DNA of 64,000 nucleotides, from assembly GCF_009371985.2 (NCBI RefSeq), contig NZ_VIKU02000003.1:124001-188000 (forward strand), written 5' to 3'. Shown here piece by piece: positions 11,235 to 34,908 of this stretch. A model generated the notes under the pieces. It saw only the letters and a list, made by a program, of their open reading frames with translations. It was not told where the DNA came from and made no database searches. How positions within the stretch are numbered: the first letter of the stretch is position 1; each line of letters begins with the position of its first letter. Source of the stretch: Pelagihabitans pacificus. GTDB lineage: Bacteria; Bacteroidota; Bacteroidia; Flavobacteriales; Flavobacteriaceae. A program made the position numbers and the translations under genes.

Positions 11235-11250
11235 TTGGCACACCAATAGT
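11235..11250 (+). promoter_or_regulatory. Sigma-54-like -24/-12 promoter of the efflux run
   Basis: TTGGCAC at 11235-11241 is a perfect -24 block. Ten bases after its GG comes GT in place of the canonical GC, so the -12 block is degenerate. It ends 21 bp before the TolC ATG and is divergent from the sigma-54-dependent regulator. Confidence 0.45.
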
Positions 11251-11271: not shown

Positions 11272-12624
11272 ATGAATATGTTTCAAAAAACGAAAACCAT
11301 GGTGTTGCTCTTTTTCTTGATCGGCGGTAGTGTAATGGCCCAAGAAAAATGGACGTTGGATGAGTGCGTGTCGTATGCGCTTTCACACAATCTGCAATTA
11401 AAGGATTTTCAGTATACCGAAGCCTCCGGCAAGGAAACCTTTAAACAATCTATTCGTAACCTGTTGCCCAACATCAGTGCCAGCTCGAATTATACCATCA
11501 ATTTCGGACGCAGTACCGATCCGTTTACCAACGATGTCGTCACTACCGACTTTTTCTCCAATAATTATTCCTTGGAAGCGTCTATCGGCCTCTTTCAAGG
11601 GTTCCAAAGGTTGCACACTATCAAAGCCTCCAAATTCCTTTATAAGGCCACAAAAGAAGATGCTCTACAGCAAAAATATTTATTGGCATTTAGGGTGATG
11701 CAGGCATTTTACGACATCCAATTTTTTGAGGGGCTGGTGGCCATCTCAAAGGAGCAATTGGCTGTTTCGCAAACAAATCTGGATTTGGTAAAGAAGCAGA
11801 TCGAACTGGGGCTTTTGGCCGCGGCAGATCGTTACGAGGCCGAATCGCTTTTGCTTACCGATAGCCTGAATCTGACCCAAAGTGAAAATCAATTGGCAGC
11901 GGCCAAGCTGCGATTGATCCAAGAAATGAATCTCGAAGGGGTTACGGAAATTTCCATTCAAAGCGATTTAATCCAAAATGAGTTATCGATGGAAGACACG
12001 GAAATGCACGTAGATTCCATTTATTCGGAAACCACTGGTTTTTTACCGTCACTAAAAGCAAGCGAATTGAGGGCCAATGCAGCAAGAAAACAACTGGCTG
12101 CCGAAAGAGGGCGGTTGTATCCATCGCTCTCCCTTTTTAGTGGGGTCGGAACCGGCTATTTTGAGACCACAAGGGATACACTCGGGGTTACGGTACCCTT
12201 TAGGGACCAGTTTCGCGACAACACCTTTCAGTTTATTGGAGTGAGTCTCAATATTCCCATCAGCAATGGCTGGTCGGCCCGATCTAGGGTCAAACAACAG
12301 AAAATAGAACGGAAGCGTGCAGAGAACAATTTGGAAATACAGGAGCAACTGGTCTATCAGACCATTCAGACCTTGGTTCAGGAACATGACGCACTTTTGG
12401 TTGAACACGAGCAAACCACCAAAAATATGGAAGCACAGCGTATGGCTTTCGCCATCGCCCAAAAAAGATATGGGAAAGGACTCATCAATGCCCTGGAACT
12501 GTTTACGGCGAAGAACCTGTTTGCCAACGCACAGAACCAGAACCTTCAGGTAAGGATGCGGTCGGAAATCAATAGGAGTACGTTGAATTTCTACCGAGGG
12601 CTTCCGGTTTTTAATATCAATTAA
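11272..12624 (+). CDS. TolC-family outer-membrane efflux protein
   Basis: Outer-membrane channel component of 450 residues. The signal peptide ends SVMAQ (about residues 4-24). Two outer-membrane efflux protein repeats follow: WTLDECVSYALSHNLQLKDFQ opens the first, and the second begins near residue 225 (FLPSLKASELRANAARKQL). Long heptad-like helices and the late motif AIAQKRYGKGLINALELFTAKNLF are typical of TolC homologues. It is the first gene of the efflux run, 22 bp before the adaptor gene. It would carry substrate from the periplasmic adaptor out of the cell. Two ATGs (11272 and 11278) are possible starts. Confidence 0.94.
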   Translation: MNMFQKTKTMVLLFFLIGGSVMAQEKWTLDECVSYALSHNLQLKDFQYTEASGKETFKQSIRNLLPNISASSNYTINFGRSTDPFTNDVVTTDFFSNNYSLEASIGLFQGFQRLHTIKASKFLYKATKEDALQQKYLLAFRVMQAFYDIQFFEGLVAISKEQLAVSQTNLDLVKKQIELGLLAAADRYEAESLLLTDSLNLTQSENQLAAAKLRLIQEMNLEGVTEISIQSDLIQNELSMEDTEMHVDSIYSETTGFLPSLKASELRANAARKQLAAERGRLYPSLSLFSGVGTGYFETTRDTLGVTVPFRDQFRDNTFQFIGVSLNIPISNGWSARSRVKQQKIERKRAENNLEIQEQLVYQTIQTLVQEHDALLVEHEQTTKNMEAQRMAFAIAQKRYGKGLINALELFTAKNLFANAQNQNLQVRMRSEINRSTLNFYRGLPVFNIN

Positions 12625-12645
12625 GCATTAAAAGGAACTACGTAA

Positions 12646-13896
12646 ATGGACATACAACTCGAGAAGAAAAAAGGATTACGCCCCAAACATTACGGCTATA
12701 TTGCCCTAGGGCTTTTATTGCTCTTTGCGGGATATCAATTGATCTTCGGAAATTCGGTCGCTACCTTTAGAACCGAAAAAGACAAACTTTCCATTGCCGA
12801 AGTAAGTCAGGGCAAATTTGATGATTACATCACTATCAACGGGAATGTGGCGCCGATTTCGACCATTTATATGGATGCGTATGAAGGTGGACGCGTTACC
12901 GAAAAATTGATAGAGGAAGGGGCAACGGTCAAAAAAGGGGATATCATCCTCAAATTGGAGAACATGAATCTTTACGAACAGATTTTGGCCAGCGAAAGCA
13001 ACCTAGCCCTAAAACAGAACGACCTCCGATCTACCAAGTTGACCTTTGATCAACGTCAGGTAGAAGGACGACGGTCATTGGCGACCGCCAGCACGGATCT
13101 GCAACGGTTGAAACGGAATTTTGAACAAAACCAGGCTTTATATGACGAGGAGTTGATTTCAAAGGAAGCCTACTTATTATCAAAGGAGAACTATGAACTT
13201 TCCAAGAAACAATATGATATTATAAAATTACAGACCGAGAACGATGATCAACTGCGAAAGACTTCATTGACGGGATTGGATGCCGATTTGGCAAGAATGC
13301 AAAAAACCTTGGGTATGGTGTATCAACGTTTGGACCACTTGAACGTTCGTGCCCCTGCCGACGGACAATTAGGCTTTTTAGATGCGGAAATAGGACAGAA
13401 TATCTCCCAAGGCCAGCGTATTGGCCAGATCAATGTGCTCACCGATTACAAAATAGAAGCGAGTATTGACGAACATTACATAGACAGGGTGATTCGGGAC
13501 CTTACCGCTGTTCTGGAAAGAAACGGGAAGGAATACCCTTTACGGCTTCGAAAAGTGTACCCGGAAGTACGCAACGGTAAGTTTAAGGTAGACCTCGTAT
13601 TTACCGATGAAAAACCTGAGACCATCCGGACCGGTCAAAGCTACAACATCAAATTACAGTTGGGAGAGTCATCCGATGCCCTTTTATTACCAAAGGGGAG
13701 TTTTTTCCAAAGTACCGGCGGGCAATGGATCTTTGTGGTAGATCCCAATGGGGGAGAGGCCCTGAAACGACCGATTCGTATTGGTAAGCAAAATTCCAGA
13801 TATTATGAGGTGTTGGAAGGCTTGGACCCTGGGGAACAAGTAATCACCAGTAATTATGATAGTTTCGGAGAGGCCGAAAGAATAGTGCTGAAATAA
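12646..13896 (+). CDS. HlyD/MacA-like periplasmic adaptor
   Basis: Membrane-fusion protein of 416 residues. One N-terminal helix (about 17-34) anchors it. A lipoyl/barrel-sandwich half (EGGRVTEKLIEEGATVKKGDIIL) leads into a coiled-coil hairpin (about 115-225). The returning half follows (LNVRAPADGQLGFLDAEIGQNIS), then beta-barrel and membrane-proximal domains ending LDPGEQVITSNYD. It bridges TolC with inner-membrane permeases as MacA does. The ATPase gene starts 95 bp downstream, and the A/T-rich gap shows no clear promoter or terminator. Confidence 0.93.
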   Translation: MDIQLEKKKGLRPKHYGYIALGLLLLFAGYQLIFGNSVATFRTEKDKLSIAEVSQGKFDDYITINGNVAPISTIYMDAYEGGRVTEKLIEEGATVKKGDIILKLENMNLYEQILASESNLALKQNDLRSTKLTFDQRQVEGRRSLATASTDLQRLKRNFEQNQALYDEELISKEAYLLSKENYELSKKQYDIIKLQTENDDQLRKTSLTGLDADLARMQKTLGMVYQRLDHLNVRAPADGQLGFLDAEIGQNISQGQRIGQINVLTDYKIEASIDEHYIDRVIRDLTAVLERNGKEYPLRLRKVYPEVRNGKFKVDLVFTDEKPETIRTGQSYNIKLQLGESSDALLLPKGSFFQSTGGQWIFVVDPNGGEALKRPIRIGKQNSRYYEVLEGLDPGEQVITSNYDSFGEAERIVLK

Positions 13897-13991
13897 CAAA
13901 AAAAATGAATTAAAAATTCAAGGGAATACTGTCACACAAAGACTCATATATTCATCTTTAGAAGTAGCATAAACAATAAATCGATCAAAAA

Positions 13992-14687
13992 ATGATACAA
14001 ATTCAGAATTTAAAAAAGAGCTTTCGCACCGAGGAAGTGGAAACCTTGGCTTTGAACAATGTAAACATGAAAATAGAAGAGGGAGAATTTGCCGCGATCA
14101 TGGGGCCTTCTGGTTGTGGTAAATCCACCCTCCTCAATATCATCGGTATGCTGGACAACCCCACGGAAGGTAGCTATCAATTTGCCGGCCACGAGGTAGG
14201 AGGCCTCAAGGAACGCCAGCGTACCGAACTTAGAAAAGGTAATTTGGGATTCGTATTTCAAAGTTTTAACCTGATCGACGAGCTTACCGTGTTCGAGAAT
14301 GTGGAATTACCGCTGATTTACCTCAAAATGAAAAAAGCCGAGCGACGTGGGAAGGTAATGACGGTGTTGGAGCGTATGAAAATAGCCCATCGCGAAAAAC
14401 ACTTTCCACATCAACTCTCCGGGGGTCAGCAACAACGGGTGGCCATTGCGCGTGCGGTGGTAACCAATCCCAAGCTGATCTTGGCGGATGAGCCGACGGG
14501 AAACCTGGATTCAAAAAACGGAATCGAAGTTATGAATCTATTGACCGAGCTGAACCAGGAAGGTACCACCATTGTAATGGTGACACACTCCGATCGCGAT
14601 TCCCACTATGCCCATAGGGTCATCAACCTATTTGATGGGCAAATTGTGACCGAAAGCCAGAACAGGGCCATGGGAGCCATGATGTAG
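13992..14687 (+). CDS. MacB/LolD-type ABC ATPase 1 (canonical)
   Basis: ABC ATPase of 231 residues with all catalytic motifs intact: Walker A GPSGCGKST (about 38-46), Q-loop VFQSFNLIDELTV, signature LSGGQQQRVAIARA, Walker B LILADEP, D-loop GNLDSKN and switch His in VTHSDR. LolD/MacB-type ATPases power FtsX-like permeases by mechanotransmission rather than classical transport. It directly precedes the first permease by 54 bp and is likely the shared motor for much of the array. Confidence 0.95.
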   Translation: MIQIQNLKKSFRTEEVETLALNNVNMKIEEGEFAAIMGPSGCGKSTLLNIIGMLDNPTEGSYQFAGHEVGGLKERQRTELRKGNLGFVFQSFNLIDELTVFENVELPLIYLKMKKAERRGKVMTVLERMKIAHREKHFPHQLSGGQQQRVAIARAVVTNPKLILADEPTGNLDSKNGIEVMNLLTELNQEGTTIVMVTHSDRDSHYAHRVINLFDGQIVTESQNRAMGAMM

Positions 14688-14721
14688 GTTTAGGAGATTT
14701 ATTCATCGATCAATAGCAATC

Positions 14722-14736
14722 ATCATCAAAAAACGA
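14722..14736 (+). repeat. Conserved permease leader, copy 1
   Basis: ATCATCAAAAAACGA, followed by 5 nt and the ATG of permease 1. The same 15 bases at the same distance precede permeases 2, 3 and 4. Confidence 0.85.
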
Positions 14737-14741
14737 ACGTC

Positions 14742-17168
14742 ATGCTCAAAAATCATTTCAAGATAGCTTGGAGGAACATAAAAAAAGACAAGCTATTTAC
14801 CTTTATCAAAATAGGAGGTTTTGCCATAGGAATTGCTGCTTGCCTATTGATTACATTGTTCGTTTCCGACGAACTCGCCTACGACCGGCACTATCTTAAG
14901 AAGAATCGCATCTTTAGAGTGTATACAAAATCCGTGGTAGACGGGGAATTAGAGCAGGATGCGTGGCATCCCGCTCCTTTCGCACGTGCGCTTACGGCCG
15001 ATTTTCCGGAAATCAAAAAGTCGGGAAGACTTTTGAACAGTGAACTTTTTGGGGCAGGAAGTAAAGAACTTCGGTTAGAAGGTGATGACCAGAGCAATTT
15101 CGAACAAGGATTTGTCTTTGTCGATCAAGAATTACTCGAGATTTTAGAGATACCCTTTTCCCAAGGGAATTCGGAAAATGCACTGTCAGAACCAAATACC
15201 ATTGTCATTTCAGGAGATAAGGCAGCAAAATATTTTCCGGAAGGTAATGCGATTGGCAAAAGTGTCGTACTAGACAATGATCCTGCGAAATCGTACAGAA
15301 TTACCGGTGTGATGCAAGAGACGGATACTAATTCCCACTTTGATTATGACTTTTTACTAACGACCGAAGGGAGGGATTTTTATCCTGGGGAAGACGACAA
15401 CTGGGCAGCACAAAACTATTTCACCTACGTATTATTGGAGGATGGCGTTAATACGGCTGATCTCGAAAAAAAATTGGTCGCTATCGTAGAGGACTATCTA
15501 GCTCCCCTGGCCCGCGAGATGGGAAGTATAAGTGCCATTGAATATTTAAAAAACACGACCTTCGGGTTACAGCCTATTGCTGAAATTCATCTTAAATCTA
15601 TTGATATCAATGATGGATTCAAACATGGCGATATTCGCTTTATTTGGCTATTTGCGGCGATAGCGGGCTTTATTCTGCTGTTGGCCTGTATTAACTTCAT
15701 AAATCTATCCACCGCAAAATCGGCTAATAGGGCAAAAGAGGTAGGACTGCGAAAAACCGTGGGAGCCTTCAAGACCAATTTAGTTTTCCAATTTTTGACC
15801 GAGGCCATTCTGTTCAGCGCCCTTTCCTTTATTTTGGGAACTTTATTGGCGTGGCTGCTCTTACCAAATTTCAATAGTATGGCCGCAAAATCAATCACCA
15901 TGCCCTGGGGGCAATGGTGGTTTATCCCGACCCTGACGATTTCTGCCTTACTGATAGGGGTATCTGCCGGACTATACCCGTCATTTTATCTGTCCTCGTT
16001 TCGACCCGTTACTGTTTTAAAGGGAAGCATAAGTGCTGGTAGCAAGAGTCGAAGACTCCGCAGTGGTCTGGTCGTTTTTCAATTTACCACCTCGATCATT
16101 TTAATTATAGGCACGCTTATCATTCATAAGCAAATGGATTATATCCTACGTAAAAAACTGGGGTATGATAAAGAACAAGTACTACTCATCAAGGGCGCCA
16201 ATACTTTGGGTGATAAGATTCAAAACTTTAAGGAACAGCTGTTGACGGTCAACGAAGTGGTAAATGTTTCCATAAGTGATTATTTACCGGTAGAGGGAAC
16301 CAAACGAAATATGAATCCGTTTTGGAAAGCAGGCATGGAACAACAGGAAAAAGCAGTAGGAGGACAGCTCTGGAGAATCGACCATGACTATCTCAATACA
16401 TTGGGCATTCAATTGAAAAAAGGAAGAAATTTTTCCCGTGAACTGGCATCGGATTCTACCGACGCTGCCATCATCAATGAATCAATGGCAAGGGGCTTGG
16501 GCTTTGTGGATCCTATCGGTGAAAAAGTGTCCAACGGCCAGCATAAAACAATCATCGGTGTCGTTGAGGATTTTCATTTAAATAATTTAAAGGAAGAAAT
16601 TGTTCCCTTAGTGCTTACTATTGGTAATAGCAGGGATATTGTAACGGTAAAACTGAACACCGAAAAAATGGATGACGCGTTGGAATCGATCACTTCGATT
16701 TGGCGGAAAAATGCTCCCAATCAACCAATTAGATATTCTTTTCTAGATCAAGACTTTGCCTTGATGCATGAGGATGTTAGGCGCATAGGCAAAATATTCA
16801 ACAGCTTTGCGGTTTTTGCTATTTTGGTTGCTTGCCTAGGGCTGTTTGCCCTTTCCGCCTTTTTGGTAGAGCAGCGGAAAAAAGAAATTAGTATACGATT
16901 GGTACTCGGGGCCCCTTTCAAGAGCATTTATACCTTGCTCACCCTCAACTTTTTAAGGCTTGTATTCATTGCAATTCTAATTGCGGTACCGATAGGATGG
17001 TTCATGATGAGCCGGTGGCTCGAGGATTTTGCATATCCTATAAAGATAGGCTGGGAGATTTTTGTCATGGCAGGGGTCCTTTCACTTATTATTGCGCTGG
17101 TGACCATCAGTTATCAATCGGTGGGGGCGGCTCTGATACAACCATCAAAAAGTTTGCGCGCTGAATGA
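14742..17168 (+). CDS. FtsX/MacB-type ABC permease 1 of 8
   Basis: An 808-residue permease with two FtsX modules. Helix 1 lies at about 21-43, after the family opening FKIAWRNIKKDK. A MacB-type periplasmic domain spans about 44-295. Three helices of FtsX module 1 follow (about 300-420), with cytoplasmic KEVGLRKTVGAFK between them. Helix 5 is at about 441-465, then a second periplasmic domain and three C-terminal helices (about 686-795) with KEISIRLVLG. The tail is QPSKSLRAE. Eight predicted helices in one chain would make a complete transmembrane unit pairing with an ATPase dimer. In its second periplasmic domain it is most like permease 3. Substrate is unknown. Confidence 0.93.
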   Translation: MLKNHFKIAWRNIKKDKLFTFIKIGGFAIGIAACLLITLFVSDELAYDRHYLKKNRIFRVYTKSVVDGELEQDAWHPAPFARALTADFPEIKKSGRLLNSELFGAGSKELRLEGDDQSNFEQGFVFVDQELLEILEIPFSQGNSENALSEPNTIVISGDKAAKYFPEGNAIGKSVVLDNDPAKSYRITGVMQETDTNSHFDYDFLLTTEGRDFYPGEDDNWAAQNYFTYVLLEDGVNTADLEKKLVAIVEDYLAPLAREMGSISAIEYLKNTTFGLQPIAEIHLKSIDINDGFKHGDIRFIWLFAAIAGFILLLACINFINLSTAKSANRAKEVGLRKTVGAFKTNLVFQFLTEAILFSALSFILGTLLAWLLLPNFNSMAAKSITMPWGQWWFIPTLTISALLIGVSAGLYPSFYLSSFRPVTVLKGSISAGSKSRRLRSGLVVFQFTTSIILIIGTLIIHKQMDYILRKKLGYDKEQVLLIKGANTLGDKIQNFKEQLLTVNEVVNVSISDYLPVEGTKRNMNPFWKAGMEQQEKAVGGQLWRIDHDYLNTLGIQLKKGRNFSRELASDSTDAAIINESMARGLGFVDPIGEKVSNGQHKTIIGVVEDFHLNNLKEEIVPLVLTIGNSRDIVTVKLNTEKMDDALESITSIWRKNAPNQPIRYSFLDQDFALMHEDVRRIGKIFNSFAVFAILVACLGLFALSAFLVEQRKKEISIRLVLGAPFKSIYTLLTLNFLRLVFIAILIAVPIGWFMMSRWLEDFAYPIKIGWEIFVMAGVLSLIIALVTISYQSVGAALIQPSKSLRAE

Positions 17169-17183
17169 AATAGCATCTGAACC

Positions 17184-17198
17184 ATCATCAAAAAACGA
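17184..17198 (+). repeat. Conserved permease leader, copy 2
   Basis: Exact copy of ATCATCAAAAAACGA, 5 nt before the ATG of permease 2. Confidence 0.85.
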
Positions 17199-17203
17199 AA
17201 ATC

Positions 17204-19603
17204 ATGTTTAAGAATTATCTAAAAATCGCCTGGCGGAACCTCAAGAAAAATATGGGTTATTCTGCCATCAATATTGGTGGACTCGCCTTGGGGATGGCCG
17301 TTACATTAATCATTGGGCTCTGGGTGAATGACGAGCTTGCATACAACAACTATTTTAAGAAAAAGGACAAAATTGCCCAAGTGTACCAATCCCAGACCTT
17401 CAATGGTGAGACCGGTACCGGCCAGGCACTGCCACGGCCTTTGGAAAAGGCATTAAGGGAAGGTTACGGGGATAACTTCAAATATTTGGTAATGGCGTCG
17501 TGGACCAATGACCTCTACCTGAAATATGGGGACAAGAGTCTCTCCAGACCCGGGAACTATATGCAGCGGGAAGCCCCTGAATTATTGGAACTGGAAATCA
17601 TCAAAGGGGAAAAAGACGGTCTACGGGAAATCAATTCCATCATGCTGTCGGAGTCTACGGCGGAAGCCCTTTTCGGAAAAGAAGACCCCATCGGTAAGGT
17701 CATTAAAGCCAGTAATCAATACGACCTAATGGTGACGGCCGTGTATCGGGATATTCCCTTCAACAACTCTTTTAACGATACGGAGTACCTTATTCCCTGG
17801 GACCAATACGTCGCCTACCGTGAGTGGGTGCAGGAAGCGGAAGACAACTGGGGAAATAACTCCTTTCAGATGTTTGTACAACTTGCCGACAATGCCAATA
17901 TGGATCGGGTTTCGGCTACTATTAGGGATGTAAAGAAGAATTTGAACGAAGACACGGCTGAATTCAATCCCCAGATATTCCTCTTTCCCATGAAAGACTG
18001 GTACCTAAGGGGTAATTTTGAAAATGGAAAACAGGTGGGGGGACGGATCAAGTATGTTTGGCTTTTTGGAATTATCGGAGCCTTTGTACTTCTTCTGGCC
18101 TGTATCAACTTTATGAACCTGAGCACGGCCCGTTCCGAAAAGCGTTCCAAGGAGGTCGGCATCCGAAAGTCGATCGGATCTCAAAGACGGCAACTGATTT
18201 ATCAATTCTTAAGTGAGTCTTTCCTGGTAGTCCTTTTTGCATATGTACTCGCCATCCTAATCGTTTTATTGTCTTTGAACGGCTTTAATGATTTGGCCAG
18301 AAAAGAGATTGCATTCCCTTGGTCGAATGGTACGTTCTGGGTCGTTTCCTTGGCTTTTGTACTTTTTACGGCACTATTGGCTGGCAGTTATCCAGCATTG
18401 TACCTTTCCTCTTTTCGCCCGGTCGATGTGCTGAAAGGCACCTTTAAGGCCGGAAAATATGCGGGGTTGCCCAGAAAGATATTGGTAGTGCTCCAATTTA
18501 CCGTGTCCGTAGCATTTATAATCGGCACGGTCATCGTAATGCAACAAATCAATCATGCCAAAAACCGACCTGTAGGGTATGACAAGGAAGGTTTAATTCA
18601 AATTCCGACATTCAGCGAGGATTTTTTTGGAAAATACGACTTGATGCGAGATGAGTTTTTAGCATCAGGAGCGGCCATAGAAATGTCAACTTCCAGCAGC
18701 CCTACCACCAGGATATGGTCGAACAGGGGCGGGTTTACCTGGGAGGGAAAGCCCGAGGGCTTTCAAGAAGATCTAGCGTGGACCGAGATTTCTCCGGAAT
18801 ACGCCAAATCGCTGAATCTGAAAATTATTGAGGGAAGGGATTTTTCGCGTGAGTTTGCCTCCGATTCCCTAGGGGTCCTCATCAATGAAACCGCAAAGAA
18901 ATACCTAGGGATGGCCAATCCCATAGGCAAATTTTTAAAGGATGATGACGAGGAAGACCCGAGCCCACCCCTCAAAATTATAGGGGTGGTACAGGACATG
19001 ATCGCCCAGTCACCCTATGAACCGGTAAAACAAGGGGTATATGTATATGATCGATTCAATAACTCGAGTTTTTACAACCTACGATTGAACCCGAACCAAA
19101 GTGCAAGTCAGAATCTGGCAACTATCGAGCGGGTCTTTACCGAACATTTTCCCGACATCCCCTTTCAATATGACTTTGTAGACGATGAATATGGGGAAAA
19201 ATTCGCCGCGGAAGAACGTATCGGTACTTTATCGGGCATTTTCACGGCCCTTGCCATTCTCATCAGCTGTCTGGGCCTTTTCGGGCTAACATCCTTTGTG
19301 GCCGAACAGCGCACGAAAGAGATAGGGGTGCGTAAGGTTTTGGGAGCTTCGGTTTTCAACGTCTGGAACATGCTTTCTAAAGATTTTTTAAAATTGGTGA
19401 TTATCTCCTGTTTTATTGCCATACCGATTTCCTACTACGTGATGAACGGATGGTTACAGGATTATCCGTATCGAGTCATTCTCGAATGGTGGATATTTGT
19501 TTTGGCAGTAATCGGAGCACTTGCCATCACCATTTTGACCGTGAGTTTCCAGGCGATCAAAGCGGCCAATGCCAACCCGGTAAATAGTCTACGAACCGAA
19601 TAA
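17204..19603 (+). CDS. FtsX/MacB-type ABC permease 2 of 8
   Basis: A 799-residue two-module FtsX permease. It opens FKNYLKIAWRNLKKN, with helix 1 in GGLALGMAVTLIIGLWVNDEL. The first periplasmic domain contains DKIAQVYQSQTFNGE, shared almost word for word with permease 6, so the two form one subfamily. The FtsX module 1 loop is KEVGIRKSIGSQRRQL and the module 2 loop is KEIGVRKVLGASVFN. The C-terminus is NPVNSLRTE. No motif is broken. The spacing of 35 bp from permease 1 contains only the shared leader, consistent with one transcript. Confidence 0.93.
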   Translation: MFKNYLKIAWRNLKKNMGYSAINIGGLALGMAVTLIIGLWVNDELAYNNYFKKKDKIAQVYQSQTFNGETGTGQALPRPLEKALREGYGDNFKYLVMASWTNDLYLKYGDKSLSRPGNYMQREAPELLELEIIKGEKDGLREINSIMLSESTAEALFGKEDPIGKVIKASNQYDLMVTAVYRDIPFNNSFNDTEYLIPWDQYVAYREWVQEAEDNWGNNSFQMFVQLADNANMDRVSATIRDVKKNLNEDTAEFNPQIFLFPMKDWYLRGNFENGKQVGGRIKYVWLFGIIGAFVLLLACINFMNLSTARSEKRSKEVGIRKSIGSQRRQLIYQFLSESFLVVLFAYVLAILIVLLSLNGFNDLARKEIAFPWSNGTFWVVSLAFVLFTALLAGSYPALYLSSFRPVDVLKGTFKAGKYAGLPRKILVVLQFTVSVAFIIGTVIVMQQINHAKNRPVGYDKEGLIQIPTFSEDFFGKYDLMRDEFLASGAAIEMSTSSSPTTRIWSNRGGFTWEGKPEGFQEDLAWTEISPEYAKSLNLKIIEGRDFSREFASDSLGVLINETAKKYLGMANPIGKFLKDDDEEDPSPPLKIIGVVQDMIAQSPYEPVKQGVYVYDRFNNSSFYNLRLNPNQSASQNLATIERVFTEHFPDIPFQYDFVDDEYGEKFAAEERIGTLSGIFTALAILISCLGLFGLTSFVAEQRTKEIGVRKVLGASVFNVWNMLSKDFLKLVIISCFIAIPISYYVMNGWLQDYPYRVILEWWIFVLAVIGALAITILTVSFQAIKAANANPVNSLRTE

Positions 19604-19616
19604 CTAAGTAAGAAGT

Positions 19617-19631
19617 ATCATCAAAAAACGA
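19617..19631 (+). repeat. Conserved permease leader, copy 3
   Basis: Exact copy of ATCATCAAAAAACGA, 5 nt before the ATG of permease 3. Confidence 0.85.
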
Positions 19632-19636
19632 GAGCC

Positions 19637-22069: not shown

Positions 22070-22089
22070 AATAAGAACTGATACCGACT

Positions 22090-22104
22090 ATCATCAAAAA
22101 ACGA
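22090..22104 (+). repeat. Conserved permease leader, copy 4
   Basis: Exact copy of ATCATCAAAAAACGA, 5 nt before the ATG of permease 4. Permease 5 keeps only a shortened form (AAAAACG, 6 nt from its ATG), and permeases 6-8 keep degenerate A-rich versions. Confidence 0.85.
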
Positions 22105-22109
22105 AAACC

Positions 22110-24539: not shown

Positions 24540-24550
24540 AAACGCAAACC

Positions 24551-26860: not shown

Positions 26861-26887
26861 TTATTCATCATTCAAAAAAACAGCATC

Positions 26888-29284
26888 ATGTTCAAAACTT
26901 ATTTAAAAGCTGCTTGGCGAAATATGTTGGAAAAAAAAGGCGAGTCCATACTGAATATAGGAGGACTTGCCATAGGAATGGCCGCCGCCCTACTTATTGG
27001 GATGTGGGTCGTTAGCGAATTGTCGTTTAACAAGGAATTCGAAAACTACGACCGTATTGCCCAGGTTATGCAAAGCCAGACCTTTGGAGGGGAAATCAGT
27101 ACAAACACGTTTCAACCGATGCAGCTGGCTCCGGTACTAAGAGACACCTATGGTGATTATTTTAAACAGGTGGTTACCGGTTCGTTCACGAATGCAATGC
27201 TTTTGACCGTGGGAAAGAAAAAGGTATCCCGTACCGGCAATTTCATGGAGCCCGGCATTACCGAAATGCTTTCGCTAAAAATGATGCAGGGCAGGCGCGA
27301 TGCCCTAAATGATCCCGGTTCAATTTTGCTATCGGAAACCACGGCAAATACGTTATTCGGAAATGCGGACCCCATGGGAAAGGTCGTGAAGATCGGCACA
27401 ACCATGGAAACCCAGGTAGCGGGAATCTATGAGGATATTCCGGAGAATTCGGAATTCGGCAATCTCACCTTTATTGCACCTTGGGAATTATTGAAGATCA
27501 CTGCCAATTTTGAGGAAAGGGTAGGATGGGGCAATAATTGGTTCCAAACCTATGTGCAGTTAGAGGACGGAGCCGATTTTAGCACTGTCTCGAACTTGAT
27601 AAAAGACGTAAAATACAACAACATTAAAAATGGGGACGACCCTTCCAGTATCAGGACGAAGCCCGTGATACACCTTCATCCTATGGAGAAATGGCACTTG
27701 TATTCGAAGTTTGAAAACGGCGTCAATACCGGGGGGCTTATAGAACGTGTTTGGCTATTCGGTATTATCGGCGTATTTATTCTTTTGTTGGCCTGTATCA
27801 ACTTCATGAACCTGAGTACGGCCAAATCGGTCAAACGTGCTAAAGAGGTAGGTATTCGTAAGACAATCGGGTCGGTCAAAGGACAATTGATTACCCAATT
27901 TTTGAGTGAAGCCTTACTACTGGTCACCATGGCATTTGCGATATCGTTTGTCCTAGTTCTGTTAGCCCGACCATTCTTCAACGAACTTACCGGAAAAGCA
28001 CTTGTTATTCCATGGAGTACCCCCCTCTTTTGGGTAGTGTGTGTTTGTTTCGTTCTGACGACCGCAATCATCTCAGGAAGCTACCCAGCCTTTTACTTGT
28101 CTTCCTTCGAGCCTGCCAAGGTATTAAAGGGTACGTTTAATAGGGGACAGGGGGCCTCGCGTTTGAGAAAGGGGCTTGTAGTTTTTCAGTTTTCCATCTC
28201 GATCGTGTTGATTATCGGTACCATTACGATATTCAGTCAAATCGAATATGTAAAGGAAAGGCCTGTGGGATATGACCGGGAGCAATTATTATACGTCCCC
28301 ATCACTACTTCTGGGCTTATAACCCATTTTGATACCTTGCGTGACGAACTTTTAGAATCAAGTGATATCGCCGAAGTGGCTGCATCGGATGTCTTGGTGA
28401 CCGGTACCTTTACCACCAATGGTGGGTTCGACTGGAAGGGAAAAGACCCCAATATGAGTGAGCAATTCAATACGCTACGGGCGACCCATGGATATGGGGA
28501 AATGATTGACTGGGAAATTAAGGAGGGGCGGAATTTCTCCAAGGAGTTCAAAAGCGATTCCCTTGCCTTTATCGTCAATGAAACGGCCGTAAAATATATG
28601 GGGCTCGAAAATCCCGTCGGCGAATACGTACAATGGGGCGATATAGGTAATTTCAAAATTATCGGGGTTATAAAGGATATGGTCACCCAATCACCTTACG
28701 ATGAAGTGCGCCCCATGCTTTTCACACTTCATTACGGCGATTTTCTGAATTTCATAAACATCAAAATTGGGAACGACAGTAACACCAAGGATGCGCTGGC
28801 CCATATTGAATCCGTATTACAAAAGTATGATCCGGAAAGTCTCTTCACCTATACGTTTTTTGACGAGGAGTATGCCCGGAATTTTATTAACGAGGAGCGA
28901 ATGGCAAAACTGGCCAGTTTCTTTTCCTTATTGGCCATTTTAATCAGCTGTTTGGGAATTTTTGGTCTTTCGGCCTTTGTCGCGGAGCAGCGTTCCAAGG
29001 AAATTGGAATACGAAAGGTGCTGGGTGCCTCGGTCTTGGGACTATGGAAAATGTTATCTAAGGATTTTATCCTTTTAGTAGCCCTATCAAGCTGTATTGC
29101 CGTTCCCCTTGGGTATCACTATATGAACGAGTGGGTTCAGGAATATTCCTATCGAATAGCGATTAGCTGGTGGATATTCGCCATCGCGATACTGGGTGCA
29201 TTGGTGATTACCCTATTGACGGTAAGTTTTCAGGCTTTCAAGGCAGCGGTAATAAACCCCATTAAAAGTTTAAGAACTGAATAA
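26888..29284 (+). CDS. FtsX/MacB-type ABC permease 6 of 8
   Basis: A 798-residue two-module permease and the closest relative in the array of permease 2. They share DRIAQVMQSQTFGGE, the periplasmic WGNNWFQTYVQL region, and FTTNGGFDWKGK against a matching segment in permease 2. Helix 1 is GGLAIGMAAALLIGMWVVSEL. The coupling loops are KEVGIRKTIGSVKGQL and KEIGIRKVLGASVLGL. It ends NPIKSLRTE. The leader is a degraded form of the 15-base repeat. The next gene is 117 bp away, the largest gap within the permease run. Confidence 0.93.
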   Translation: MFKTYLKAAWRNMLEKKGESILNIGGLAIGMAAALLIGMWVVSELSFNKEFENYDRIAQVMQSQTFGGEISTNTFQPMQLAPVLRDTYGDYFKQVVTGSFTNAMLLTVGKKKVSRTGNFMEPGITEMLSLKMMQGRRDALNDPGSILLSETTANTLFGNADPMGKVVKIGTTMETQVAGIYEDIPENSEFGNLTFIAPWELLKITANFEERVGWGNNWFQTYVQLEDGADFSTVSNLIKDVKYNNIKNGDDPSSIRTKPVIHLHPMEKWHLYSKFENGVNTGGLIERVWLFGIIGVFILLLACINFMNLSTAKSVKRAKEVGIRKTIGSVKGQLITQFLSEALLLVTMAFAISFVLVLLARPFFNELTGKALVIPWSTPLFWVVCVCFVLTTAIISGSYPAFYLSSFEPAKVLKGTFNRGQGASRLRKGLVVFQFSISIVLIIGTITIFSQIEYVKERPVGYDREQLLYVPITTSGLITHFDTLRDELLESSDIAEVAASDVLVTGTFTTNGGFDWKGKDPNMSEQFNTLRATHGYGEMIDWEIKEGRNFSKEFKSDSLAFIVNETAVKYMGLENPVGEYVQWGDIGNFKIIGVIKDMVTQSPYDEVRPMLFTLHYGDFLNFINIKIGNDSNTKDALAHIESVLQKYDPESLFTYTFFDEEYARNFINEERMAKLASFFSLLAILISCLGIFGLSAFVAEQRSKEIGIRKVLGASVLGLWKMLSKDFILLVALSSCIAVPLGYHYMNEWVQEYSYRIAISWWIFAIAILGALVITLLTVSFQAFKAAVINPIKSLRTE

Positions 29285-29401
29285 TTAACCGCGGTAAAAT
29301 ACAATCATTTAGTATGAAACTTTTTCCATCACCAATGAAAATGGAATGATTATGAAACAAAACAGCGTACCCTTTTAGCGGAACATCGAAAAACAACGAT
29401 T

Positions 29402-31759
29402 ATGTTAAAACGAAGAATGGTTTTATTTTTAAGAAGGGTTCAAAAATCGAGACGTACCTTTTTAATCAATTTTGTGGGTTTAGCTACCGGCCTAAGCTGT
29501 GTATTACTCGTATATTTATGGATAAGTGATGAGTTGAAAGTCGATAAATTTCATGAAAACGACCATCGGCTTGTTCAGACCATGTTGCGGCATAATTCAG
29601 GCGACCAAATCAATGTGATTTTCAATAACTCCACCTTACTGGCTCCTGTCCTAAAAGATGATTTTCCAGAAATTGAAGAAGCAGTGAGGACGGTCGATGC
29701 AGTACAGAAAAGTACATTGTCCTATGGTGATAATTCCATTAATGGTCAGGGGCTGTATGCGGATAGGGAGTTTTTCCAGATCTTTAGCTTTCATTTACTA
29801 CATGGTGCCAAAACCGAGGTTCTTTCGGGTGCGGGAAACATTGTAATTTCAAAGAAACTTGCCGCAAAATTATTTGGTTCGGTTGAACAGTCTCTGGGAC
29901 AATCCGTAACATTCAACACATCACACATCTTTCAGGTATCCGGGGTTTTCGAAAATGTTCCCACCGCGTCGACGATGCAATTCGATTTTGTATTGCCCTT
30001 TGACCTGCTTTTTGAACATTATCCGTTCTTTTATGAAGATTGGAGCTTTTCTTTTGCAAATACTTTCTTGCTGCTTAAACCGGAAACCGAGCTCACTGCT
30101 TTCAACAAAAAGATTGAAAATGTTTTGGAAATACACGAGGGAGATGAAACAACAACCTTATTCGCAAGACCTTACTCCGAACGGTATCTATATGGTACAT
30201 ACGAAAATGGGGTTCAAACAGGGGGACGTATTGATTATGTGAAATTATTTGCGCTGATCGGCTTTTTCATTTTAGTGATTGCCTGTATCAATTTTGTCAA
30301 TCTTTCAACAGCTAGGGCTTCCTTGCGGATGAAGGAAGTGGGGGTCAGAAAGGCGCTCGGCATTAAAAGAAGGTCTTTGGTGATGCAATTTCTTATCGAA
30401 TCTACGCTTTTGGTGGCTTTGTCGCTCGCTGCAGCCATATTCTTAACAATCTTCTTACTTCCGGCATTTAATCGGATTACGGGCAAAGAGATGACGCTTC
30501 CGATAAATTGGGAAATAATCCTATTTGGCACAATCATCACACTGCTAACCGGTTTTATTGCAGGAATCTATCCAGCATTCTATATCTCTAGATTCAAGAT
30601 TGTAAATGCCTTGACCGGAAAGCTTAAAACCGGTGTCGGGGAGTTTATGATTAGAAAGGGTTTGGTGGTATTTCAATTTACCTTATCTATTATTTTAATA
30701 ATAGGTGTGCTGGTAATTTACCAACAATTGGAGCTGATACAAAGCAAGAACCAGGGATTTGACAGGGAAAATGTAATTTATTTTGCTATGGACGGCAAAC
30801 TAAAAACGAATGTAGAGACATTTCTTTCGGAGGTCAAGAACATTCCTGGCGTTAAGGAAGCCGCAAGCGCCTCCTCTGGAATCTTTGGAGGAAACGGACG
30901 TACATCCGATTTACATTGGAGTGGAAAGGAAGAAGGCGTTGAGCTGGGCATGCGATATTTGGTCGCTGATTACAACCTATTGGAGGTTTTGGACATGAAA
31001 ATGATAGAAGGAAGAACTTTTTCGAGGGAATATAGTGCCGACAGTACAAAAATTATTTTCAATGAGGCTGCCATTGAATTAATGGGATTGCAGCATCCAG
31101 TGGGATCAACAGTACGATTATGGGGTGAGGACAAAGAAATTATAGGAGTGGTTCAAAATTTTCACTTGCAATCGCTTCGTGACCCTTTAGCGCCGACTTT
31201 TATCTTCTTACAACCAGATCGTCTGCATACCGTAATGGCAAAACTCGAGAAAGAAGACCTCAACGAAACCATTGGCAGTGTTGCGGCTTTCTACGAAAGC
31301 TACAATCCGGGTTTCCCTTTTGAATACCGGTTTTTGGATGAGGATTTTCAAAGACTTTATGAGGGCGAGAACCGAGTATCTGCCTTGTCCAAGTATTTTG
31401 CAGGTATGGCCATTCTGATCTCATGTCTGGGGCTTTTTGGCTTGGCGATCTTTACATCGGAAAGAAGAAGAAAAGAAATCAGTATCCGAAAAGTGTTGGG
31501 GCAAAGCGTCGCACAGGTAACACTGATGCTCTCCAAAGAGTTTGCTAAACTTGTTGTATTGGCTATTCTAATTGCATTGCCCATAGCCTATTTCTTATCG
31601 AATGACTGGCTTTCAGGTTTTGCATATCGCATTCCTTTAAGGCTTTGGTATTTTACGGTAGCAGGTATGGTAGCTTTGATAATAGCAATGCTTTCGGTAG
31701 GTAGCCAGGCGATACGGGCAGCGAATCGAAACCCCGTGAACGCCTTGAGAGAGGAATAG
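29402..31759 (+). CDS. FtsX/MacB-type ABC permease 7 of 8
   Basis: A 785-residue two-module permease with a more basic N-terminus (MLKRRMVLFLRRVQKSRR) in place of the AWRN opening. Helix 1 is FVGLATGLSCVLLVYLWISDEL. The coupling loops are KEVGVRKALGIKRRSL and KEISIRKVLGQSVAQV. Its second periplasmic domain keeps EGRTFSREYSADS. It ends NPVNALREE, as permease 5 does. The 117 bp upstream gap and a different leader suggest it joined the array separately or is translated differently. No promoter matching TAnnTTTG was found in the gap. Confidence 0.92.
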   Translation: MLKRRMVLFLRRVQKSRRTFLINFVGLATGLSCVLLVYLWISDELKVDKFHENDHRLVQTMLRHNSGDQINVIFNNSTLLAPVLKDDFPEIEEAVRTVDAVQKSTLSYGDNSINGQGLYADREFFQIFSFHLLHGAKTEVLSGAGNIVISKKLAAKLFGSVEQSLGQSVTFNTSHIFQVSGVFENVPTASTMQFDFVLPFDLLFEHYPFFYEDWSFSFANTFLLLKPETELTAFNKKIENVLEIHEGDETTTLFARPYSERYLYGTYENGVQTGGRIDYVKLFALIGFFILVIACINFVNLSTARASLRMKEVGVRKALGIKRRSLVMQFLIESTLLVALSLAAAIFLTIFLLPAFNRITGKEMTLPINWEIILFGTIITLLTGFIAGIYPAFYISRFKIVNALTGKLKTGVGEFMIRKGLVVFQFTLSIILIIGVLVIYQQLELIQSKNQGFDRENVIYFAMDGKLKTNVETFLSEVKNIPGVKEAASASSGIFGGNGRTSDLHWSGKEEGVELGMRYLVADYNLLEVLDMKMIEGRTFSREYSADSTKIIFNEAAIELMGLQHPVGSTVRLWGEDKEIIGVVQNFHLQSLRDPLAPTFIFLQPDRLHTVMAKLEKEDLNETIGSVAAFYESYNPGFPFEYRFLDEDFQRLYEGENRVSALSKYFAGMAILISCLGLFGLAIFTSERRRKEISIRKVLGQSVAQVTLMLSKEFAKLVVLAILIALPIAYFLSNDWLSGFAYRIPLRLWYFTVAGMVALIIAMLSVGSQAIRAANRNPVNALREE

Positions 31760-31787
31760 TCCTGTATATCAAAGTAAAAAAGTCATC

Positions 31788-34196
31788 ATGCTAAAAAACT
31801 ATCTTAAAATCGCTTGGCGGAATCTATGGAAAGATAAGACCTACTCAAGCATCAATATACTCGGTTTGTCCGTGGCTTTTGCGGTCGCCATACTCCTGTC
31901 AATGGCCGCCTTTTTTGAATTGTCGTATGATAATTTCCATGAGCACAAAGACCGAGTATTTCAGGTCTATAACGTACAACAGACACCCGATGGGCCCGAG
32001 GCGGGTACCAGCCAGCCCACCCCTTTTGCGGAAAGTCTGAAAACGGAAGTGCCCGGGGTCGACCATATTACAAGAGTCCTTCATGATAATGCCCTGGCCA
32101 TCTACATCGAAAAGGAAATCAATCTTGATATCGCTTGGGTAGATCCCGATTTTTTCACCATGTTTACGTTTCCTATTATCGAGGGCGACCAATCAACCCC
32201 CTTAAATGAATTGGGATCGGTGGTCATTTCCAATGAAGCCGCAAAAACCCTTTTTGGTGACACCGATATTGTAGGGAAAAGCTTACGGCTTTTAATCAAC
32301 GGGGAAGAACGGCCTTTTACCGTAGCGGCCGTGATGAAAGACACCCCTCGAAACAGCACTTTTGACTTTGACATGGCCCTACGTTTTGAAAACAACCCGG
32401 AATATGCTTCGACAAAAGATAGTTGGCAGGCCCAATACCACGAAGTGTTTGCCATGTTGGCAAATTCAGTATCTGCGGAACGGTTTGAATCGAATAGCCA
32501 TGCCTTCATCGATCTGCATTACAACGAAGCCATTGAAAACGCAAAACGGGACGGCGCCCAGCCTGATGCGGATGAAAAATATCGTCAGGTTGAACTACTA
32601 CCACTGCGTGATGTACGTTTCACTAGCTTCCGAAAAGGGTTCGCAGAGGTCAGTAGAAGCAACCCCTATCTGATTTTAAGCGTGGCCTTGCTGATTTTGT
32701 TTATCGCGGGTGTCAACTATATAAATATGAGCATGGCAAGGAGTGCAAAACGCCTCAAGGAAATAGGCATGCGAAAAACCTTGGGCGCCAGAGGAAAACA
32801 GCTATTTTTTCAATTTTGGGGAGAAAGCCTATTGCTATTTCTGGTGGCGATGGCCCTCGGGATACTCCTAAGCGCCTTGTTGGTAGATCCCTTTAAAAGT
32901 ATGTTCCGTACGGGGGCGACCTATGACCAATTAAGTTCTCCACAGTTCATCGTGATAGGGGGGCTTTTGGTATTGATCATTAGCCTGATCGTAGGGGGAT
33001 ATCCGGCATTCCTGTTAAGTCGTTTCGGTACGGTACAATCCCTCAAGGGGACCTTGCAGGCGAATGGGGCCAACTGGGTCAGGAATACCTTGATGGTCGT
33101 CCAATTTGGTATCGCAATGTTATTAATTACCAGTACCTTGGTATTGCTCGGCCAGATAGATTACATGCGGAACAAGGATCTGGGATATGAAAAAGAGCAA
33201 GTCATTTCATTTCCCCTGAACGGGAAAAGAGGTAGTTATGCCGTTTTGGAGCTTCTGAAACAAGAACTAAAGGGAAACCCCGATATCCTGGGCGTCACGG
33301 GGGCTGACAACAACCTAGGACGCGGTAGGGATGGCAATCAATATTCGAGTGCCATCGGTTTCGAGTACAAGGGGCGCACGGTAGGTACCAACTTTTTGGT
33401 GGTCGACCATGATTATGTAGAAACCTTGGGGCTTGACATGGCCATGGGCCGAAGTTTTAAAAGCCCTGCCGACAGCACGGGTATATTGATCAATGAAGCT
33501 ATGGTAAAGGAACTACGTGAACAAGACCCCATGTCGGCATACCTGCAGATCAATGGTGATTTGAAGTCGCCTGTCCTTGGTGTGGTGAAAGATTATCATT
33601 TTCAGGATCTTGACCGCGCGATTGCGCCGTTGACCTTTTTTATGAGCCGAGATCTGGAACTTGCCTATGCATACGTAAAAGTAGCCCCGGTGAACATGGC
33701 GGACTCCTACGAGCATGTTAAGGAGGTCTGGGGGAAAATCGAACCCAATGCAGACTTTTTGGGTTCGTTCCTCGATGAAAATGTAGATCGCACCTTCCGT
33801 AGGGAGCAGGCCACCGCCAAACTGATTGCGAGCGGATCGGTGTTGGCCATCCTATTGAGCTGTATCGGTCTTTTTGCAATGTCGATGCTCATAGTTTCAC
33901 AGCGTGTGAAGGAAATTGGTATTCGAAAGGTCATCGGCGCCAGCGTATCCTCGATTACCTTTATGCTTACCAAGGATTTTTTAAGACTACTACTACTATC
34001 CCTTGGTATCGCCGCTCCGATTTCTTGGTGGTTCTTGCAAGAATGGCTTGAAAACTATGCCTATCGTATCGAGTTACATCCTGGGTTCTTTCTAGCTGCC
34101 GGGATTATGGTGGTCGTCATCGCTATCTTTACGGTCAGTACTAAAACAATCAAAGCGGCCTTGCAAAACCCGGTCAAAAGCCTAAGGACCGAATGA
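31788..34196 (+). CDS. FtsX/MacB-type ABC permease 8 of 8
   Basis: An 802-residue two-module permease that reverts to the canonical opening LKNYLKIAWRNLWKDK. Helix 1 is GLSVAFAVAILLSMAAFFEL. The module 1 loop is KEIGMRKTLGARGKQL and the module 2 loop is KEIGIRKVIGASVSSI. The second periplasmic domain has a shortened motif, MGRSFKSPADSTG. It ends NPVKSLRTE. It is followed after 49 bp by ATPase 2, so it may be that ATPase's cognate partner. Confidence 0.92.
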   Translation: MLKNYLKIAWRNLWKDKTYSSINILGLSVAFAVAILLSMAAFFELSYDNFHEHKDRVFQVYNVQQTPDGPEAGTSQPTPFAESLKTEVPGVDHITRVLHDNALAIYIEKEINLDIAWVDPDFFTMFTFPIIEGDQSTPLNELGSVVISNEAAKTLFGDTDIVGKSLRLLINGEERPFTVAAVMKDTPRNSTFDFDMALRFENNPEYASTKDSWQAQYHEVFAMLANSVSAERFESNSHAFIDLHYNEAIENAKRDGAQPDADEKYRQVELLPLRDVRFTSFRKGFAEVSRSNPYLILSVALLILFIAGVNYINMSMARSAKRLKEIGMRKTLGARGKQLFFQFWGESLLLFLVAMALGILLSALLVDPFKSMFRTGATYDQLSSPQFIVIGGLLVLIISLIVGGYPAFLLSRFGTVQSLKGTLQANGANWVRNTLMVVQFGIAMLLITSTLVLLGQIDYMRNKDLGYEKEQVISFPLNGKRGSYAVLELLKQELKGNPDILGVTGADNNLGRGRDGNQYSSAIGFEYKGRTVGTNFLVVDHDYVETLGLDMAMGRSFKSPADSTGILINEAMVKELREQDPMSAYLQINGDLKSPVLGVVKDYHFQDLDRAIAPLTFFMSRDLELAYAYVKVAPVNMADSYEHVKEVWGKIEPNADFLGSFLDENVDRTFRREQATAKLIASGSVLAILLSCIGLFAMSMLIVSQRVKEIGIRKVIGASVSSITFMLTKDFLRLLLLSLGIAAPISWWFLQEWLENYAYRIELHPGFFLAAGIMVVVIAIFTVSTKTIKAALQNPVKSLRTE

Positions 34197-34245
34197 AGGA
34201 AAGAAACCGATAACACAAAACCAACAAATTCAATAAGAACAAACT

Positions 34246-34908
34246 ATGTTACTAGAACTAAACAACATTTTTAAATGGGTACAGCAAGGGGGCCAGCGTG
34301 TTTTCCTTCTAAAGGATATCAACCTGAAAGTAGCGGAGGGAGAGTTTATCTCGGTCATGGGCCCTTCAGGTTCTGGGAAGTCTACTCTGTTAAACGTTAT
34401 CGGCATGCTTGATGGTTTTAATGAGGGAGAATATCACTTCATGGATGAATCGGTACACACTCTCAGGGAGAAGCATCGGGCCGAACTGTATAAGCAGTAT
34501 ATCGGTTTCGTGTTTCAGGCCTATCATTTGATCGATGAACTAACGGTGTACGAGAACCTGGAAATGCCGTTGCTCTACAAAAAAATAAAGGGATCTGAAC
34601 GCAAGGCGATGGTGGCCGATATGTTAGATCGTTTCAATATCGTTGGCAAAAAAGACCTGTTTCCGACCCAGCTTAGTGGGGGACAACAACAGCTGGTGGG
34701 AGTGGCCAGGGCCTTGATCAGCAAACCCAAATTGATACTGGCCGACGAGCCCACTGGAAACTTAAATTCCAAACAAGGACAGGATATCATGGAACTTTTC
34801 AAGCAATTAAATAACGAGGGCGTCACCATCATTCAAGTGACCCATTCCGAGAAGAATGCGGAATACGGTTCCCGAATCATTCAGTTGTTGGATGGACGTA
34901 AGGTCTAG
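34246..34908 (+). CDS. MacB/LolD-type ABC ATPase 2 (divergent signature and D-loop)
   Basis: A 220-residue ABC ATPase closing the efflux run. Walker A (GPSGSGKST), Q-loop (VFQAYHLIDELTV), Walker B (LILADEP) and switch His (VTHSEK) are intact. However, the signature is LSGGQQQLVGVARA, with Leu replacing the usual Arg after QQQ, and the D-loop is GNLNSKQ, with Asn replacing the conserved Asp. Those positions influence inter-subunit ATP hydrolysis in ABC proteins, so reduced activity or an obligate heterodimer with ATPase 1 is possible. This is inference. Confidence 0.93.
   Translation: MLLELNNIFKWVQQGGQRVFLLKDINLKVAEGEFISVMGPSGSGKSTLLNVIGMLDGFNEGEYHFMDESVHTLREKHRAELYKQYIGFVFQAYHLIDELTVYENLEMPLLYKKIKGSERKAMVADMLDRFNIVGKKDLFPTQLSGGQQQLVGVARALISKPKLILADEPTGNLNSKQGQDIMELFKQLNNEGVTIIQVTHSEKNAEYGSRIIQLLDGRKV

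Follow-up and report, generated by a model that had tools for sequence, protein, structure and literature searches.

Transport machines usually have one permease per motor, and the energy-coupling factor (ECF) importers, in which many substrate-binding parts share one motor, are the known exception, for uptake. Among the described systems closest to the locus reported here, the darobactin exporter DarBCD has one permease and has the precursor peptide DarA and the radical SAM enzyme DarE as neighbors, MacB of MacAB-TolC is a homodimer with a fused ATPase, and ADOPs are described as orphan permeases lacking ATPase genes. BceB has 10 transmembrane (TM) helices and one large extracellular domain, and the type VII transporter BceAB is read by BceS, a kinase that has two TM helices but lacks an extracellular domain. 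YbbAP is not known to have an adaptor or TolC. According to an excerpt of PMC12646458, YbbP is one pseudosymmetric chain holding two YbbA ATPase subunits. Here we analyzed a 64,000-nucleotide stretch of Pelagihabitans pacificus (contig NZ_VIKU02000003.1, positions 124,001 to 188,000; hereafter the window) containing a row of eight FtsX/MacB-type permease genes between two ATPase genes, and we describe its gene layout, the variable permease number in relatives, the conserved upstream sites, the duplicated 8-TM fold (in one model) and the conservation pattern. The locus probably encodes a sigma-54-induced tripartite type VII ATP-binding cassette (ABC) exporter in which the ATPases, the adaptor, and the outer-membrane channel are common to many permease heads, a reading that we favor with some reserve.

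The source genome comprises 4.56 Mb in 22 contigs. An earlier note, made from the DNA letters, had placed TolC, an adaptor, an ATPase, eight intact permeases of about 770–810 residues, and a second ATPase on the plus strand with short gaps, with a sigma-54-type regulator and a kinase divergent from them; open reading frames (ORFs), Pfam domains and translation confirmed this arrangement in every part. The plus-strand order is TolC, HlyD, ATPase 1, eight duplicated permeases (P1 to P8), and ATPase 2, with intergenic gaps of 11–117 bases across the row; the permeases have 769–810 residues, every frame being open from start to stop, and the genes for the sigma-54 response regulator and the kinase lie on the minus strand. 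An HlyD-type adaptor and TolC thus stand in the same cluster, as in a tripartite exporter. Identity among the eight permeases ranges from 26 to 49%, and the two pairs singled out before, P1 with P3 and P2 with P6, are indeed the most similar (40 and 49%), the remaining pairs being at 26–35%. The ending NPVxSLRTE, which the same note took to be mostly shared, is exact in three of the eight (P2, P3, and P8) and was overstated for the other five, which end in QPSKSLRAE, NPAKTLRTE, NPVNALREE (twice), and NPIKSLRTE.

All eight permeases scored above the Pfam gathering score for both MacB_PCD and FtsX, the domains of type VII (MacB superfamily) permeases. The AlphaFold structure prediction, made for P3 alone among the eight (pLDDT 86.7, pTM 0.82; 72-sequence alignment), has eight TM helices, two MacB-like periplasmic domains (residues 46–293 and 467–678), and two coupling helices (residues 327–335 and 715–723), with the periplasmic domain between TM1 and TM2 and the coupling helix between TM2 and TM3, as in the type VII fold. 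The top Foldseek match of this model was YbbP over its full length (E 7.4e-20, TM-score 0.47, rmsd 11.2); LolC/LolE were also among the fold or profile matches to the permeases, and the nearest solved chains by sequence profile were a bacterial permease domain from Porphyromonas gingivalis (3is6) and MacB. When 161 permease sequences (no more than three per cluster, as defined below) were compared, mean column entropy was 1.56 in cytosolic, 2.06 in TM, and 2.69 in periplasmic positions, and was lowest (0.79) at the second coupling segment (residues 714–727). If one motor were shared and served different substrates, a universal socket combined with a variable periplasmic part would be expected.

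The nearest named relatives by adaptor were Flavobacteriaceae (uncultured isolates, Maribacter, Pseudozobellia, Pricia, Zobellia, and others), and genomes of the same genus carried rows of differing length. We drew a set of arrays from 80 named loci with an adaptor 84–95% identical to that of the window and annotated 69 arrays, nine from the genomes labeled G (the window's included) and 60 from named loci, counting as a full permease any frame of at least 700 residues. The 49 complete arrays, which span ATPase 1 through ATPase 2 and include the window's, held 490 permeases, with a minimum of 2, a median of 8, and a maximum of 38 per array; the 20 incomplete arrays, of which 19 end at the edge of the locus and one (G010) has no ATPase 2, stand outside this range and are counted in the cluster frequencies over 69 arrays, and estimates of length based on distance left out L017, L061, and L064, in which the two genes were not placeable in line on a single contig. 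The largest array (L074) comprises 38 full permeases and four permease fragments over 103 kb; among the small ones, that of Zobellia russellii (L046) has three permeases. Each of the 68 arrays having the adaptor in the stretch has exactly one ATPase 1 and no reverse-strand permease. Identity to the window's proteins is 84–95% for the adaptor, 87–97% for ATPase 1, and 83–93% for ATPase 2; TolC, regulator, and kinase are less conserved across the arrays. Inside 25 of the 48 complete arrays checked, we also noted secreted-looking DUF2807 (head GIN domain) proteins (e.g. L009 12046–12873), with none in the window's own array, and proteins that by eye resemble secreted alpha/beta hydrolases lie inside two arrays.

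In the 40 arrays with more than five permeases, the median identity of permeases within an array was 29–35% and that of the best pair at most 69%. Because these values are low, the row is not an artifact of recent tandem copying, and we ruled out recent tandem duplication on this ground. Single-linkage clustering at 55% identity sorted the 550 pooled permeases into 69 clusters, 20 of them singletons. Cluster A occurs in 58 of the 69 arrays and cluster B in 50, and the remaining clusters are patchy, mostly with one member per array. The order of cluster pairs was 84% concordant in the 49 complete arrays, compared with 65% after shuffling (at most 69% in 200 shuffles). Judged by these identities and orders, the permeases are old paralogues with a patchy repertoire and a partly conserved order. 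With a view to transfer, permease identity was compared with that of the flanking genes, and the two correlated weakly (rho −0.16 to 0.67 over 22 clusters), and in 495 of 1374 pairs the cluster B permeases were more than 10 points more identical than their flanks, with a largest excess of 26 points (L063_2).

Among 299 genomes from the window's family, 32 carry a second adaptor family, at loci (platform 2, the window's kind being platform 1) with the typical order HlyD, ATPase, permeases, ATPase 2, and TolC; its adaptor is 34–41% identical to the window's (32 loci). The 142 platform-2 permeases have a median best identity of 56% to a platform-1 permease, and 77 of them reach 55%; of the 49 multi-member clusters, 24 include a platform-2 permease at no less than 50% identity. 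For the adaptor, median identity was 85% within platform 1, 39% between the two platforms, and 74% within platform 2; the corresponding values were 78, 63, and 62% for permease B and 63, 58, and 59% for permease D, where the assignment of platform-2 permeases to clusters by a best hit of at least 44% identity biases the between-platform values upward. According to these medians the adaptor is slower than the permeases within platform 1 yet far more different between platforms, and we infer, as the simplest reading, a single replacement of adaptor and TolC with the permease bank retained. The platform label changes once on the tree of B (30 of the 54 platform-1 members and 20 platform-2 members) and once on that of D (26 platform-1 and nine platform-2 members). 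A free exchange of permeases between platforms is not supported by these two trees.

The comparison of genomes thus speaks for the suggestion, made in the earlier note, of shared motors or a modular bank of specificities: 2–38 permeases lie between near-constant flanks, the variability is highest in the periplasm, and permeases of largely the same clusters are found with two different adaptor/TolC sets. Permeases scattered singly, which had been named as the outcome that would weaken a shared machine, were not seen within the 68 arrays; elsewhere single-permease clusters do occur, in 7 of 15 regions in one set and in 4 of the 32 platform-2 loci, and the window's own genome has a lone member of the permease family (C1:1085352–1087730; L101) with no ATPase next to it. 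These single-permease clusters of related parts indicate that the kind of system is known and that the multi-permease row is what differs. We also found HlyD-ATPase-TolC or ATPase 2-TolC clusters with no permease beside them in G215 (L168), G694 (L217), G869 (L218), and G819 (L219), those of G694 and G819 being read over a short upstream stretch of 6–7 kb; they are either chassis without heads or chassis whose heads lie elsewhere.

ATPase 2 forms a clade apart from ATPase 1 (support 100/100), in a tree that includes two platform-2 copies. All 49 platform-1 ATPase 2 copies have the D-loop NLNS and L, V, or I after LSGGQQQ; all 69 ATPase 1 copies have NLDS and R at these places. ATPase 2 is present in 68 of the 69 named loci examined for it. 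On platform 2, it is present in all 21 loci with at least two permeases and a visible end and in none of the four with one permease (Fisher 7.9e-5, with loci counted without correction for relatedness); in seven more platform-2 loci that overran the stretch, ATPase 2 lies on the same contig about 0.1–10 kb beyond in six and on another contig in G434. Among 394 further genomes of the phylum, 73 each carry a single relative of ATPase 2 at 58–85% identity, and in 12 of the 20 such places read, two or more permeases directly precede it, which indicates that a row capped by ATPase 2 is not confined to the family of the window. A separate observation is an ATPase that follows a separate permease in G003 (L087 4485–5204), with the D-loop NLNS, no canonical signature by pattern, and a long branch.

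Upstream of TolC, twin palindromes were found in 61 of the 68 regulator-TolC intergenic regions, spaced by 5 bp in all 61 though 3–8 bp were allowed; their mean number was 0 in 100 rounds of shuffling (here and below, shuffles of single bases rather than dinucleotides). A tighter form of the pair, with no more than two mismatches, matched the genome once, at this locus, so the regulator may serve the exporter operon alone. The promoter-like pattern TGGCA[CT]-N7-G[CT], which was picked after reading the 68 regions, occurs in 55 of them (shuffle mean 0.24). Where both elements stand in line (49 loci), it lies 101–104 bp, nearly always 102 bp, from the palindromes, and this near-fixed distance supports the post hoc pattern independently; in the window, the distance from the beginning of the first palindrome to the −24/−12-like site is 102 bp. 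The strict −24/−12 consensus GG-N9-TGC was rejected, being found on the forward strand in just two of the 68 regions. As rpoN is also present in the genome, the locus has by sequence what a sigma-54 operon would need, namely an activator, a GG-N10-GC/GT site, an upstream site, and rpoN. Scans for sigma-70-type promoters and terminators gave results at or below chance. A second TGGCA[CT] box, at 11259–11264, lies just before the start of TolC, about 23 bp downstream of where the promoter-like site begins, and by eye recurs in many loci.

The N terminus of the kinase has two hydrophobic TM helices (at about residues 7–28 and 34–53) with few residues between them, and neither sequence nor hydropathy revealed a periplasmic sensor domain. 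Ten of the 68 orthologues were inspected and have hydrophobic stretches at residues 5–57, two of them with a further one near 194–212; all 68 have 2 to 5 hydrophobic stretches starting before residue 200. Sensing by the kinase may take place within the membrane or, by analogy with BceS, by way of the transporter. Control of FtsX-type permeases by sigma-54 in Bacteroidia has been reported from promoter predictions, according to an excerpt of PMC12316311.

We propose that an envelope signal would activate the kinase, that the phosphorylated regulator would bind the twin palindromes, and that sigma-54 RNA polymerase would transcribe from 11236 through one operon of about 24 kb. Each permease alone would be a complete transmembrane pseudo-dimer of two MacB-like halves, taking two ATPase subunits, and the motor pair on it would be ATPase 1 with itself or with ATPase 2. 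The permease would dock on the common HlyD adaptor and TolC and would expel what its own periplasmic domains select. The permeases would thereby be interchangeable heads on one chassis, with a repertoire evolving by gain and loss of heads. By analogy with DarBCD and MacAB, the substrates are likely periplasmic peptides or amphipathic compounds. More tentatively, and with doubts that outweigh our confidence, we propose a combinatorial exporter widespread in Bacteroidota, in which a fixed chassis (two non-equivalent ATPases, adaptor, and TolC) would carry an evolving bank of up to about 40 single-chain heads, co-induced by a kinase that lacks a sensor domain and reads permease activity, the chassis having been exchanged and the bank kept in one branch.

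Several observations weigh against the shared-chassis exporter. Any type VII permease family should be conserved on its cytosolic side, ordinary constraint giving a similar trend, and the cytosolic loop at residues 415–432 is as variable as the periplasm (entropy 2.61). Besides the upward bias of the between-platform identities given above, the medians of cluster A fall from 63% within platform 1 to 45% between platforms (46% within platform 2), and the single change of platform label on the B and D trees indicates that permeases do not pass freely between platforms at present. In 13 of the 68 regions the promoter pattern, in the form given above, is missing, in some owing to a called start upstream of the site, and in the window its −12 part is AGT instead of the canonical TGC. 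The genomes of G010 and L007, with two permeases each, gave no ATPase 2 at E 1e-85, so some arrays can do without it. Finally, among the 20 places read across the phylum, a single permease precedes ATPase 2 in one (G762), no permease lies beside it in three (G694, G869, and G819; over 6–7 kb upstream in G694 and G819), and the gene order is rearranged in four (G949, G899, G684, and G812).

The clade of its own that ATPase 2 forms, and the NLNS and changed post-signature stretch in 49 of 49 copies, would also suit a dedicated motor for a subset of permeases, with two machines in one operon; because the presence of ATPase 2 does not follow any permease cluster in the smallest arrays, where rows made up of just A and B include one that has it (L057) and two that lack it (G010 and L007), we regard this division as improbable. 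The permeases could instead handle envelope lipids or lipoproteins, extracting different ones from the inner membrane and passing them to the adaptor and TolC or to periplasmic partners in the manner of LolCDE or YbbAP. YbbP is the closest full-length fold, LolC/LolE were also matched, and the secreted DUF2807 proteins (25 of 48 complete arrays) and the hydrolase-like secreted proteins (by eye, two arrays) would fit such a role; however, a TolC and an HlyD adaptor, as found beside the row, are not known from the Lol and YbbAP systems, and among curated models ADOP and the darobactin peptide exporter come closest, which leaves lipid handling unlikely in our judgment.

It is quite improbable that the permeases act mainly as mechanotransducers or sensors, passing ATPase motion to periplasmic enzymes or to the kinase in the manner of FtsEX or BceAB: the two-TM kinase without a periplasmic sensor domain has the architecture of kinases that read transporters, such as BceS, but many TM-only kinases sense otherwise, and the conserved TolC and adaptor speak for transport across the outer membrane. 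Non-adaptive accumulation, in which the row would be a hotspot collecting divergent permease copies with the core permeases alone in use, could account for the broken permeases in four arrays (L074, L016, L047, and L066; 11 pieces) and for the short 5′ leader common to unrelated permeases. Against those 11 pieces stand 550 permease frames of at least 700 residues, and clusters have been kept across genera and across the two platforms; we consider this explanation very unlikely.

Table 1. Features of the permease locus, with positions in the window
Feature	Positions	Strand	Basis or remarks
Sensor histidine kinase	8248..9600	-	HATPase_c; PAS match weak, below cut-off (Pfam, sequence, hydropathy)
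NtrC-type response regulator	9708..11087	-	Response_reg, Sigma54_activat, Fis HTH (Pfam, NCBIfam)
Twin 17-bp palindromes TGT-N11-ACA, 5 bp apart; probable upstream activating sequence	11134..11172	+	Conservation
Predicted −24/−12-like sigma-54 promoter, TGGCACACCAATAGT	11236..11250	+	Pattern TGGCA[CT]-N7-G[CT]
TolC-family outer membrane channel	11272..12624	+	Pfam OEP above cut-off
HlyD/MacA-type periplasmic adaptor	12646..13896	+	HlyD_3 above cut-off; top NCBIfam model DarC, below its cut-off
ABC ATPase 1	13992..14687	+	LSGGQQQRVAIARA, D-loop NLDS
Permease P1, 808 aa	14742..17168	+	Cluster F
Permease P2, 799 aa	17204..19603	+	Cluster B (50/69 arrays)
Permease P3, 810 aa	19637..22069	+	Cluster A (58/69 arrays); the one modeled
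Permease P4, 809 aa	22110..24539	+	Without partner at 55% identity
Permease P5, 769 aa	24551..26860	+	Cluster N
Permease P6, 798 aa	26888..29284	+	Cluster R
Permease P7, 785 aa	29402..31759	+	Cluster r
Permease P8, 802 aa	31788..34196	+	Cluster C (28/69 arrays)
ABC ATPase 2	34246..34908	+	Clade apart from ATPase 1; altered post-signature stretch LSGGQQQLVGVARA; D-loop NLNS

The features of the locus are collected in Table 1. Within the row, we noted that the 15-mer ATCATCAAAAAACGA precedes the start codons of P1 to P4 (14722–14736, 17184–17198, 19617–19631, and 22090–22104), although the four proteins are merely 27–40% identical. The genome holds five exact copies, these four and one before a short ORF 0.8 kb to the left of the window. 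A shorter form precedes 55 of the 550 array permeases, from 18 clusters (shuffled mean 0.12). The 15-mer may be a shared untranslated element or the trace of recombination. Outside the row, Pfam identified patatin-like phospholipase genes flanking the cluster on both sides (6484–8229 and 36793–38502), for which no match was found in the other 14 of the 15 regions compared, and the frame at 41443–43311 encodes an adenylate/guanylate cyclase catalytic domain fused to TPR repeats.

If the reading proposed here is true, a tripartite exporter with a shared motor would be the export counterpart of the ECF importers, and the large duplicated FtsX permease families of Bacteroidota would have a likely function. 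The natural series of 2 to 38 heads on a near-constant chassis would then be available for study, and one could test with it where in a type VII permease the choice of substrate is set and which part is the universal socket.

Of the described systems, the type VII permease, HlyD-type adaptor, TolC, and MacB fold are common to the locus and MacAB-TolC; here, however, the ATPases have genes of their own in place of the fused ATPase, the permease is a predicted single-chain pseudo-dimer, and there are many permeases. A single-chain pseudosymmetric type VII permease with two ATPase subunits, as predicted here, is also the design of YbbAP-TesA, in which YbbP has 10 TM helices and a periplasmic hydrolase partner, compared with 8 TM helices in the P3 model (PMC12646458, in the excerpt cited above). 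The two-TM kinase without an extracellular domain and the type VII permease recall BceAB/BceS. The P3 model differs from BceB in its 8 TM helices and two periplasmic domains, and the locus differs in that its regulator is a sigma-54 activator and that TolC and adaptor are present.

The ADOP model (TIGR03434) was the top NCBIfam match for all eight permeases and likewise describes a permease with two FtsX halves. Membership was rejected, as none of the eight passes the cut-off of 622.3 bits (225.9–313.2 bits); here, two ATPases flank the permease row, and ADOPs are set apart by their description as orphans. The earlier note had not recognized the locus as a described system, and no such permease array was described in the titles and abstract starts of the best matches in full-text searches of open-licence PubMed Central. 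The kinds of component are, in turn, already known, as is sigma-54 control of FtsX-type permeases in Bacteroidia (PMC12316311).

DarBCD (NCBIfam NF038008, NF038010, and NF038007) has, as here, a separate ATPase, a duplicated permease of about 777 positions, and an HlyD-type adaptor. DarB was the second NCBIfam match for the permeases, DarC the top match for the adaptor, and DarD the top match for both ATPases. Membership in DarBCD was rejected on scores of 90–194 bits for DarB (cut-off 700), 211.6 for DarC (450), and 295.3 and 245.5 for DarD (375), and the adaptor exceeds the cut-off of just one general adaptor model, TIGR01730. No radical SAM domain was found among the 30 window proteins scanned with Pfam, which are part of the window's ORFs. 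DarBCD is the closest characterized machine, from which the array described here differs in its eight permeases (2–38 in relatives), its second ATPase, the TolC in its operon, and its sigma-54 pair.

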